Assembly (NCBI RefSeq): GCF_000568815.1
Contig: NZ_CP007201.1
Location: 1,550,001 to 1,614,000, forward strand
DNA length: 64,000 nt
Direction: 5' to 3'
DNA from: Sulfurospirillum multivorans DSM 12446
GTDB taxonomy: Bacteria > Campylobacterota > Campylobacteria > Campylobacterales > Sulfurospirillaceae
This document shows positions 17,411 through 52,901 of this stretch, piece after piece; the stretch's first letter is position 1; every line of letters starts with the position of its first letter. The translations under genes were made by a program, and so were the position numbers. The notes under the pieces were generated by a model. It was not told the DNA's origin, searched no databases, and saw nothing but the letters and a program-made list of their open reading frames with translations.

Positions 17411-17450
17411 CTTTACATGTAAAGGTGAAAATCTTTACATGTAAAGATTT
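17411..17450. terminator. Double TTACATGTAA terminator
   Basis: Two palindromes (17411-17424 and 17432-17447) follow the DAHP synthase stop, and the second is followed by TTTTTTAT. Each can fold alone, and the two can pair with each other. The element separates convergent genes, so it can serve both strands. Confidence 0.75.
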
Positions 17451-45895: not shown

Positions 45896-47224
45896 CTATT
45901 CCCATGGTGCTTTTTGAAAAACAGTTGTAAAGAAAGGATCCTCTAGTGTTTGAATGAGTTCATGTGCAAAGCTAAGGACACCGGCATAGCCTATAAAAGA
46001 GGTTTGTAATACAGGTGAAACCTCCATAAAAGCGATTTTGGATGCAGCCGCAGCATGATAGTGATGAACATCACAGAGTAAAATATCCACCGCTTCTTCG
46101 TCAATTATCTCTTCAAGCTCTTCGTAAGAATCACGAATGACCATACCTTGACCTTTTAATAATTCAAAAACTTTTTCACTATCATCTTGCGTGCATTGGT
46201 AAATGGCAGTTGCTGCGATGCGAACATTCAGCTCCTTTAACATAGGAATAAACTGCCATGAGTACTTCCCTTTCAGATCGAGTAGTGCGACTTTATCCTT
46301 TAAAACCGTGCGACAAGATTCTAATGCTTGGTTGAGACTTTTCTCTTCACGCGCAATAAACTGCTCTGAAATGCGTGTGAGTTTTCCATCGGCAAAAGTC
46401 TCTACGATGGAGCGAATCGCATCGGAAGTTGCGTGCCTTCCATAAAAAGAGACCTCGACCCAAGGAATATCCCACGCCTCTTTCATCTTCCTTGCTAAAC
46501 TGCCCATCGGTTTAGCGCCAATCAGGACATTGAGTTTTGCACAGTGCGCTTTTTGTGTCTGTTCCACATCTTCCCCACCTCCAAACATCCAATGAATGCG
46601 AAACCCAATGCTTTCAAGGAGTGTTTTATACGCATTCATTTCATTCAAGGAGGCGTTAAAACCTATGAGATTAATGTCGTATGCCAAAGCATCAAAAGGC
46701 TCTTTCTGCCCCATTAACTGCTGCATCAGTGTCACGCCTGCGATGCGCGCACCAAACGGAACGCCTCCCATAAACCCTGCTGCATTGATGAGGATAATCG
46801 GTATACCAAGGGTTTCTTGCTGGGTGTTAATAATGCGTTCAATATCCTCACCAATGAGAGAGCTTACACAGGTCAGATAGATAAAGATGACGTCTGGATG
46901 AATGTGCGTATAGATATACGTAATGCTGGATGAGAGTTTGTCTTCACCACCAAAAATAAGATCGTGTGCGTCCATTTGTGTGGTAAAAATAGAAGAGGGT
47001 GCATCCTGAAAAAGATACGTTACCTGAGGACAGGTACTCGGTGAATGAATAAGATGCGCCGCATTTTTAAAAGGCAATAAGGCTTGAATCGCTCCCTCAA
47101 ACGAACACCCACCGATCATAGTGCCAGGACTAAGCCGCTCACAGGTCACTTTTTTCTCTGTATCGGCATTGTGACTACAGCTGGATTCGTTGAAAAGCTC
47201 TTTAATGCTCTGATAACGCGACAT
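45896..47224 (-). CDS. Lone NifE-like nitrogenase component 1 protein
   Basis: A 442-residue member of the nitrogenase alpha/beta superfamily. Cys28, Cys40 (GTMIGGCSFEGA), Cys65 and Cys119 (YLTCVSSLIGEDIE) fit cluster ligands. Cys228 precedes PMGSLARKMKEAWDIPWVEVSFYG, which is a NifE-type segment, and the C-terminus GYAGVLSFAHELI resembles NifE's AGYAG. No NifN partner is adjacent. It starts 16 bases after anfA with a clear AAGGAAG site, so it is in the anfA transcript. It may help assemble or insert the Fe-only cofactor; this is inference. Confidence 0.75.
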   Translation of the reverse strand: MSRYQSIKELFNESSCSHNADTEKKVTCERLSPGTMIGGCSFEGAIQALLPFKNAAHLIHSPSTCPQVTYLFQDAPSSIFTTQMDAHDLIFGGEDKLSSSITYIYTHIHPDVIFIYLTCVSSLIGEDIERIINTQQETLGIPIILINAAGFMGGVPFGARIAGVTLMQQLMGQKEPFDALAYDINLIGFNASLNEMNAYKTLLESIGFRIHWMFGGGEDVEQTQKAHCAKLNVLIGAKPMGSLARKMKEAWDIPWVEVSFYGRHATSDAIRSIVETFADGKLTRISEQFIAREEKSLNQALESCRTVLKDKVALLDLKGKYSWQFIPMLKELNVRIAATAIYQCTQDDSEKVFELLKGQGMVIRDSYEELEEIIDEEAVDILLCDVHHYHAAAASKIAFMEVSPVLQTSFIGYAGVLSFAHELIQTLEDPFFTTVFQKAPWE

Positions 47225-47240: not shown

Positions 47241-48776
47241 TTAAAGATATTCTTCAACACCAATCTCAAATTTTTGGATTTTATACCCAATTTGACGGTT
47301 GCTAATGCCCAGTTTTTTTGCCGCATGAATCTTAATGCCACTGCACTCCTTCAATACTTTAATAATCGTCTGACGTTCCAACTCCTCCAAATCTGCCTTC
47401 GTTTCAAAGACTTTGATATCGACCTGTGTCTTTGCTGGAAGCACGGAGGATAGGACATGCGCGTTTACATGTAAAGAGGGAGCGAGCAGAACAATGCGTT
47501 CCATACAGTTTTCAAGCTCACGAATATTTCCCGGCCAATTGTACGCTTTAAGCAGTGTTTCCGCATCGTTCATTAACGAGCGCTCTTTGGCATGACGCCT
47601 GCAAAATCGTTCCAAAAAGTAGCGTGAAAGCAAAATGATATCATCGCCTCGATCACGAAGAGAAGGGGAGTGAATCGGAATCACATTGAGCCTGTAAAAA
47701 AGATCTTCCCTAAAACTTCCTTGACGCACCATCTCTTTGATATCACGGTTTGTTGCCGCCACAATGCGCACATCGACTTTAATGGTCTTGGTTCCACCCA
47801 GCCTTTCAAACTCTTGTTCTTGAAGCACGCGCAACAGTTTGGCTTGAAGGTTTAAACTCAAATCGCCCACTTCATCCAAAAAAAGCGTTCCCTCATCGGC
47901 AAGCTCAAAACGCCCTTTGCGCATCTCTTTCGCATCGGTAAAAGCGCCTCTCTCGTGCCCAAACAGCTCGGTCTCCAAAAGATTTTCAGGAATGGCAGCA
48001 CAGTTGAGTTTGATGTAAGGTTTTTCTTTGCGCAGGCTATAGTTATGAATCGCTTTGGCGATAAGTTCTTTGCCCGTACCCGTTTCACCGCTGATCAAGA
48101 TGGTGGAGCTCGTACACGCCACCTTGCCCACAATGTCCAAAACACTCTGAATCACCGCGCTATGACCGATGATCTCATTTTGTTTGAGTATCTCTTCTTT
48201 GTAGTAGAGTTTTTCCTCTTTGAGGCGCTTTTTTTCATCATTGATCGTCTGATAAATTTGCTGTGATTGCGCCATCAAAGAGGCGGTAATCGTTAAGATG
48301 GTAACCATTTCTTCAATATCTGAGAGCGATTTTTGTGTCAAACTCACGCCCAAAACACCAAAAAGTCTGTTTTGAGAGAGTGCGGGGATAGCAAGGTAGG
48401 AAATTTCACTCTCTTTAAGACTGCAACTTTTGTTGAGAAAAAGGATGTTTTGATGAACGTTTTCTATAACAACGGGCTCTAAAAATTGCGCACATAACCC
48501 CGTAGCGCCTTCACCCACTTTATAGGTCGCTAAGAGTTCTTGCCGTTTACTGAGCCCCACAGAACTTAAGACTTCAAGTTCATTGCTCTCATCATTGAGC
48601 GCATAATAGATGCTTTTATCCATGTAAAAGTGCCGTTTAAGCAGGCTGAGTGTTGTTTCAAACGCTTTTTCGATGCCAAGCTCACTGCCTTTGAGTGCGA
48701 CGGAGATTTCGTATAAAACCCGAAGCTCTTGATAACGTGGGCAATCTTTGATGGGGCTGATGCAAATTGTATCCAC
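47241..48776 (-). CDS. anfA: Sigma-54 activator of the alternative nitrogenase, AnfA/NifA type
   Basis: A 511-residue enhancer-binding protein. An N-terminal GAF domain (about 20-165) is followed by an AAA+ domain: Walker [39 protein letters not shown] (the sigma-54 contact loop is GAFTDA, not GAFTGA), Walker [13 protein letters not shown]-terminal Fis-type helix-turn-helix ([16 protein letters not shown]) completes it. Its place beside anfDGK makes it their activator. No Cys pair between AAA+ and HTH as in oxygen-sensing NifA is evident. A palindrome copy gives Leu-His-Val. Confidence 0.85.
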
Positions 48777-48809: not shown

Positions 48810-48839
48810 TATCGTAGTATAATTTATTATACTACGATA
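48810..48839. promoter_or_regulatory. Mo-box-like palindrome upstream of anfA
   Basis: TATCGTAGTATAA (48810-48822) and TTATACTACGATA (48827-48839) are perfect reverse complements around TTTA. Read as ATCGTAGTATA-N6-TATACTACGAT it has the 11-N6-11 layout, the ATCG/CGAT ends and TATA inner halves of ModE molybdate boxes. It lies 34 bases upstream of the anfA start. A Mo-loaded ModE-type repressor here would shut off the Fe-only system. A transcription terminator for the upstream gene is possible, but no T-run follows. Confidence 0.65.
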
Positions 48840-48867
48840 GTATACTGCTTAGCTGGAGGAAGATGAA

Positions 48868-49407
48868 TCACAAAAGTGCCTCTTTATTAAACAATTCACT
48901 CTCTTGCGCAATGTTTTCTTTTGCACTGAGCTCATAAGGTTCTATTTTAAAGACAGAGACCGCTTTGCCATCGTGCGTGGAGCGATACTTTTCGATCAAA
49001 CTTCCCGAGAGTTGGTGCTTGTAGTAGTGTGGCGTGTATTTATCCAACAATTTTTGAAGTACTAAAGCGGACTCTTCGGCGTCCATTACTTTCTCAGCCA
49101 CACCAAAAATGATCACACTGCGATACGCCGTATCGGCATGACAGGGAACGGGATCGACAACGGTGCCGTATTCATGGAAGAGGGTAAAGCAGACGGAGGG
49201 TTTTTGAAGCAAAATACTCTCTTTTTTACCGCTTCCCATACCATGGAAATAAACCGCGCCCTTGTACCACACGTAATTCACAGGCGTGGCGTAAGGCATG
49301 TTTTGCTCATCCACCATCGCTACAATGCCCACACGCGTCTCGTTTAAAAAGGCTTTAATAATCGCTTCATCGGTACAGATTCTTTTGGTATAACGAATTG
49401 TGTGCAT
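48868..49407 (-). CDS. Pyridoxamine 5'-phosphate oxidase-like flavin protein
   Basis: A 179-residue FMN-binding split-barrel protein (RVGIVAMVDEQNMPYATPVNYVW, shown as the first barrel strands; YFHGMGSGKKESIL; VIIFGVAEKVMDAEE). It is closest to the NimA/5-nitroimidazole-reductase-like subgroup rather than true PdxH. It lies between anfK and anfA on the same strand, so a redox or flavin role connected to the nitrogenase is plausible but unproven. Confidence 0.75.
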   Translation of the reverse strand: MHTIRYTKRICTDEAIIKAFLNETRVGIVAMVDEQNMPYATPVNYVWYKGAVYFHGMGSGKKESILLQKPSVCFTLFHEYGTVVDPVPCHADTAYRSVIIFGVAEKVMDAEESALVLQKLLDKYTPHYYKHQLSGSLIEKYRSTHDGKAVSVFKIEPYELSAKENIAQESELFNKEALL

Positions 49408-49469: not shown

Positions 49470-50867
<1,398 letters not shown>

Positions 50868-50877
50868 TTATCCTTTT

Positions 50878-51255
50878 TTAGTATCGTGCAACTGTCAGCT
50901 CTTTATTGAGCGAACCGCTAATCGTGACGTAGTCAATACGTTCTTTAAGCTTCTCTATCAGCACCTTGATACTCTCTTTATCCATTTCCGCAAACCAAGA
51001 AAAACGCGCTCTAAAGGCTTCAGTCAACGAGAGGGCATCAACCCAATAACAACGATCTTCGGGTGTCTCTTTCGCCACTTCTTCATCGCATAAAAGTTGC
51101 TTTGTTTTACTCAAAACCCCTTCGTTTTGCCTCTCTCTATCCCACGATCTTGAGTGAAACTGCCAAAGGCAATGTTTCATAATATAATCTTCCATCTGCA
51201 TGATTCGAGCACTTTGTGTCGATTGTATTTGCATATTTACTTTTTCATCGCTCAT
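50878..51255 (-). CDS. anfG: Iron-only nitrogenase delta subunit
   Basis: A 125-residue delta subunit. Such a subunit exists only in alternative (V or Fe-only) nitrogenases. IMQMEDYIMKHCLWQFHSRSWDRE, CYWVDALSLTEAFR and a tail RIDYVTISGSLNKELTVARY fit AnfG (about 130 residues in Azotobacter). A good GGAG site precedes its ATG, 11 bases from the anfD stop. Confidence 0.93.
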   Translation of the reverse strand: MSDEKVNMQIQSTQSARIMQMEDYIMKHCLWQFHSRSWDRERQNEGVLSKTKQLLCDEEVAKETPEDRCYWVDALSLTEAFRARFSWFAEMDKESIKVLIEKLKERIDYVTISGSLNKELTVARY

Positions 51256-51266
51256 TGGTTTCTCCT

Positions 51267-52901
<1,635 letters not shown>

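Follow-up and report, generated by a model that had tools for sequence, protein, structure and literature searches.

A putative Mo-box in front of anfA suggests molybdenum control of the Fe-only nitrogenase in Sulfurospirillum multivorans

Sulfurospirillum multivorans has been reported to possess gene clusters for two nitrogenases, one of the Mo-iron and one of the iron-iron type (PMC4794192). Between two genes of its anf cluster lies a perfect palindrome, which raises the question of whether the activator gene behind it, anfA, is placed under the control of Mo. The initial annotation read this palindrome as an operator of the ModE type (Mo-box). We have examined this reading in the window, i.e., the whole stretch of 64,000 nucleotides at positions 1550001-1614000 of the closed, 3,175,729-bp genome, as well as in the complete genome and in related genomes. 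On the evidence of the sequences compared, the Mo-box reading is well supported, and the back-up Fe-only enzyme is likely to be switched off when Mo is present.

The cluster has the gene order anfD-anfG-anfK-flavoprotein-anfA-nifE-like (Table 1). The product of anfA is a NifA-type sigma-54 activator that is linked to anfDGK, which is the criterion for AnfA used here. Flavoprotein genes of a similar type can also be found beside anf genes at two other loci (L048 and L177). The nifE-like gene after anfA, which scores below the NifE cut-off and is not accompanied by nifN, may encode a scaffold for the Fe-only cofactor. No anfH is present in the anf cluster (49470-52874 in the window), and a nifH-family search above the cut-off returned one gene per genome, located in the nif region, and none in one draft genome. 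With a single nifH per genome and no anfH in the cluster, NifH must serve both nitrogenases.

Table 1. Features of the anf cluster and of the palindrome in front of anfA (positions in the window).
Feature	Position	Strand	Basis
anfD, Fe-only nitrogenase alpha subunit	51267..52874	-	TIGR01861, 1027 bits, above cut-off
anfG, Fe-only nitrogenase delta subunit	50878..51255	-	TIGR02929, 171.6 bits, above cut-off
anfK, Fe-only nitrogenase beta subunit	49470..50864	-	TIGR02931, 901 bits, above cut-off
PPOX/NimA-like flavoprotein gene, adjoins the box on its upstream side	48868..49407	-	
Candidate -10 hexamer TATACT, abuts the box	48839..48844	-	Alignment of upstream regions
Perfect inverted repeat, 30 bp, 14-bp arms, 2-base centre; contains the Mo-box	48810..48839	.	
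Mo-box (putative ModE operator) in the ModE register, ATCGTAGTATA-N6-TATACTACGAT	48811..48838	.	
Promoter-proximal half-site, ATCGTAGTATA on the anfA strand	48828..48838	-	
anfA-proximal half-site, TATACTACGAT on the anfA strand	48811..48821	-	
anfA, NifA-type sigma-54 activator, 511 aa, GTG start	47241..48776	-	TIGR01817, 469.9 bits, below cut-off of 528.85; tree
nifE-like gene, immediately after anfA	45896..47224	-	TIGR01283, 302.8 bits, below cut-off

The inverted repeat is present as first described, in the gap between the flavoprotein gene and anfA, which share the same strand; 34 bp separate the box from anfA, the box starting 62 bases ahead of the start codon. The box, ATCGTAGTATA-ATTTAT-TATACTACGAT, is matched in the window at this position alone, with 0 mismatches and even when 3 mismatches are allowed, and shuffled controls gave 0 matches. 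A search of the 3.18-Mb genome with the pattern ATCGN3TATA-N6-TATAN3CGAT returned a single exact match, the anfA box itself, followed by a site with 1 mismatch before a molybdoenzyme operon and a site with 2 mismatches before mop. At 3 mismatches the pattern is not enriched (16 matches versus 22 for the reversed control), so that only the top few hits are meaningful. A different palindrome, TTTACATGTAAA, 12 bp in length, occurs in 16 copies in the 64-kb window against none expected (sites at 17412, 17434, 43287, 43304, 47464, and 49438, for example), both between and within genes and sometimes as facing pairs.

The size and ends of the palindrome had been likened to those of ModE boxes, and this likeness holds. 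The ModE consensus from E. coli is ATCGNTATATA-N6-TATATANCGAT (PMC545781), from which the anfA box departs at 4 of 20 positions (16 agreeing), two per arm and at corresponding places; the modA operator of E. coli, GTCGTTATATTGTCGCCTACATAACGTT, likewise has 4 mismatches. Membership among ModE boxes was judged by two inverted 11-bp half-sites near ATCGNTATATA and by a half-site spacing of N6 (or N7): the anfA box has such half-sites, and N6 is found in all eight anfA boxes as well as in those of mop and modE3. In other anfA boxes the mismatches to the E. coli consensus number 2-3 (genomes G398 and G209) or 7 (G206), and the mismatch count alone does not separate anfA (2-7) from nifA (6-8).

Proteins that could use such a box are encoded in the genome. 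Three full-length ModE proteins, each with a helix-turn-helix (HTH) and two TOBE domains, are present, two of them encoded in separate mod operons and the third by a solo gene, modE3; a fourth ModE-like protein, with an HTH and without TOBE, is encoded beside a second uptake operon. The modE3 product aligns over its full length with E. coli ModE 1b9m (E = 2e-34), the HTH being closely similar, and ModE3 can be found in all eight anfA-bearing genomes and also in genomes without anfA. Boxes similar to that of anfA, which the initial annotation had proposed to look for before Mo genes, do occur there, both in this genome and in its relatives. The gene mop, for a di-TOBE molbindin, is preceded by ATCGTTATATATTTATTAATACTATGAT in this genome and by ATCGTTATGTATTAATAAATACTACGAT in relatives, where the right arm equals the anfA half-site except for one end base, and modE3 is preceded in relatives by ATCGTAATATAATTAAAAATACAACGAT. 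The mod operons have boxes with N7, among them ATCGTTATATACTTAAACTACATAAGGAA and AGCGTTATATCTTTTAAGGTTATAACGCT, this spacing being the main one in mod operons of the genus, whereas the anfA box is N6.

Several further sites were encountered. Upstream of modE in mod operons of the genus (L028 and L031), two N7 Mo-boxes can be found, one of which overlaps the ribosome-binding site. The weaker, 1-mismatch box (L030, 10117-10144; genome 2918116-2918143) stands before an operon for a molybdoenzyme of the DMSO-reductase family, which may be under ModE control. Behind the mop Mo-box (L027, 2942-2969; also L153) lies a conserved ORF, roughly 60 aa long and resembling a small membrane protein, and G209 has a second ORF of this kind with its own Mo-box and without mop. 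In other Sulfurospirillum genomes (L163 and L147), strong N6 Mo-boxes precede genes for a FecB-like binding protein and an ABC ATPase, possibly a Mo uptake system of the MolABC type.

Model R1, which uses sequence only, was derived from the mop and modE3 boxes with their reverse complements and contains no anfA box. Over the whole genome of S. multivorans it ranks mop (21.9 bits), anfA (21.8 bits, E = 9.5e-4), and then modE3 (18.1 bits). Outside the training set no site scores higher than the anfA box, which stands level with mop at the top of the genome, both with E-values of about 1e-3 that are rough by the tool's own note. In the other anfA-bearing genomes the box is detected at E-values of 0.002-0.05, to be read with the same latitude. 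When run on the E. coli modA region, R1 missed the operator at E-values up to 1, so that the model lends no weight to the likeness to E. coli, which is drawn from the consensus.

AnfA orthologs (79-100% identity) can be found in 8 of 24 Sulfurospirillum genomes, which are close relatives and not independent events, and NifA paralogs (50-53%) in 21. In all eight anfA upstream regions the box lies at positions -59 to -62, with 24.2-32.0 bits on the mop/modE3 matrix; in 1000 shuffles of each upstream region the maximum was 19.7 bits and the observed score was never reached. The 21 nifA upstream regions do not exceed 9.2 bits, the matrix score separating cleanly the two groups. In comparisons between clades, the arms of the box are 68-73% identical and the flanks 25-43%; for the multivorans clade against the cavolei clade, the values are 68-73% for the arms and 29-36% for the flanks. 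Both arms have shifted in the cavolei clade (TAG/CTA to TTA/TAA) with the dyad kept, leading in G398 to the E. coli half-site ATCGTTATATA; half-sites of this E. coli type arose, both arms together, in two species. Such paired changes that preserve the dyad are what would be expected of a site bound by a dimer.

A sequence resembling a -10 hexamer (TATACT, TAAAAT, or TATAAT) ends 0-2 bases ahead of the box in all eight anfA upstream regions, so that transcription of anfA would be expected to start inside the box. The palindrome is therefore, very probably, a ModE operator, placed over the transcription start of anfA, through which Mo would repress this gene. When Mo is plentiful, a molybdate-loaded ModE dimer would bind the two ATCGTAGTATA half-sites and, by occupying the start site together with part of the -10 region, block transcription of anfA and of the nifE-like gene behind it; with AnfA missing, anfDGK of the Fe-only nitrogenase would stay unactivated. 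Upon exhaustion of Mo, ModE would leave, AnfA would be made, and the Fe-only enzyme would be expressed. We infer in this scheme the binding of ModE, the identity of the ModE involved, the location of the start site, repression, and the activation of anfDGK by AnfA.

Other readings of the palindrome have to be weighed. AT-rich palindromes are common among bacterial operators, and ModE binding is here a prediction; the site could thus belong to another dimeric regulator, responding for instance to nitrogen or iron status, and resemble a Mo-box by chance. This is unlikely considering that the best-matching sites of the genome precede genes for Mo-binding and ModE proteins, and that nifA, likewise under nitrogen control, has no such box. 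Slightly less probable still is that ModE binds the site but activates anfA, or responds to another oxyanion such as tungstate: E. coli ModE is annotated as a dual regulator, and the fourth ModE-like protein, the one without TOBE, would be compatible with such a variant, but with the likely -10 element directly next to the box, a bound protein would be expected to obstruct polymerase, and the effect on anfA is repression in both Rhodobacter capsulatus and Azotobacter vinelandii. We regard as equally improbable that the palindrome acts as an RNA hairpin, either as a terminator or mRNA-end signal of the anfDGK-flavoprotein transcript or in the leader of anfA. It does lie between two genes of the same strand, with a predicted RNA fold of -17.4 kcal/mol (z = -4.85); however, its G+C content is only 21%, neither strand has a T run after it, and no terminator was called at the site. 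Moreover, arm pairing falls to 8-9 of 11 half-site positions in G209 and G398, yet the match to the ModE consensus rises, and the same sequence stands before mop and modE3, which are not located behind anf genes. An intrinsic terminator, with its G+C-rich hairpin and T run, was accordingly rejected for a box that is common to the mop and modE3 promoters; the possibility of a function in termination only, raised at the outset as a refutation, finds no signature in the sequence. A chance palindrome was rejected on account of the genome scan, the shuffles, and the conservation. The Mo-box reading thus emerges supported by the ModE proteins, the boxes at Mo genes, and the lack of a terminator signature.

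With regards to the origin of this wiring, it had been suggested that the same logic arose in a distant phylum, and this idea gains support. In a tree without AnfA from Pseudomonadota, and with long outgroup branches, AnfA groups with full support with the NifA of G167 (72% identity), inside the campylobacterotal NifA clade. G167, which we take to be Wolinella succinogenes, has nifH and genes resembling nifV and nifB as neighbors of its nifA, and no box upstream of it (score -16.7). Among the sequences fetched, the closest relatives of AnfK outside the genus are mostly from Firmicutes (Desulfosporosinus and Propionispira, 77-79%); at the Firmicutes anf loci checked, neither an AnfA-like gene nor a convincing Mo-box was in reach. 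A locus from another family of the order (L048, genome G117) has anfDGK, a flavoprotein gene, and nifH, with neither an AnfA-like gene nor a convincing Mo-box in reach. G390, picked up by a weak AnfG match, is not an anf locus.

The combination of an activator apparently derived from campylobacterotal NifA with anf genes related, outside the genus, mainly to those of Firmicutes suggests that the wiring was assembled independently. As a lead, the simplest reading would be that three components came together in the genus: anf genes that had been acquired, a NifA of the Wolinella type, and the ModE regulon of the genus itself. Whether Mo control of Fe-only nitrogenase evolved independently in Campylobacterota, i.e., whether a Sulfurospirillum ancestor gained anf, recruited a Wolinella-type NifA, brought it through a new operator into its own ModE regulon, and so arrived at the circuit known from Rhodobacter and Azotobacter, is in our estimate an evenly balanced matter. 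Mo control at this locus would extend the Mo-gating of alternative nitrogenases from Alpha- and Gammaproteobacteria to Campylobacterota. It would also offer an example of regulatory convergence whose components (the acquired enzyme genes, the recruited activator, the resident metal sensor, and the operator) could be dated along a single genus. For Sulfurospirillum, which is studied for dehalogenation, the analysis further yields a specific prediction of the ModE regulon and of the conditions under which the Fe-only nitrogenase is made.

Three known systems can be compared with the present one. The E. coli modA operator and the anfA box are both 28-bp dyads with N6 spacing, half-sites of the CGnTAT type, and 4 consensus mismatches; they differ in that the anfA half-site ATCGTAGTATA of this species is unlike ATCGNTATATA at positions 6-7, and in that the target of the anfA box is a nitrogenase activator. 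In A. vinelandii, Mo represses anfA partly via two ModE paralogs, and one anfA start lies inside a putative ModE site (PMC9542535). The anfA/vnfA1 circuit with ModE1 and ModE2 thus has in common with the Sulfurospirillum locus a ModE site in the anfA promoter with a start inside it (both predicted here), and redundant ModE paralogs. Sulfurospirillum differs by having no vnf system, only one nifH, and no known sigma-54 start at anfA; a simple scan of the regions upstream of anfD, of the flavoprotein gene, and of anfA found no sigma-54 promoter. MopA and MopB of R. capsulatus are each able to repress anfA through a Mo-box (PMC6925177), and the repression of anfA via ModE proteins has been described in both organisms (PMC6925177; PMC7294313; PMC9542535). 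Common to R. capsulatus and Sulfurospirillum are a Mo-box before anfA (putative in Sulfurospirillum) and a mop gene (PMC6925177; PMC7294313), more than one ModE protein, with one in a mod operon, and anfA, in Sulfurospirillum by prediction, as the single switch of the Fe-only genes. In contrast with R. capsulatus, Sulfurospirillum belongs to another phylum, its AnfA groups with campylobacterotal NifA, its anfA is not known to be activated by NtrC, its anf cluster is without anfH, and its anfA repression is predicted. Mo-gated anfA is therefore already known in R. capsulatus and A. vinelandii, and what is new is its probable occurrence in Campylobacterota, on an activator apparently descended from campylobacterotal NifA.
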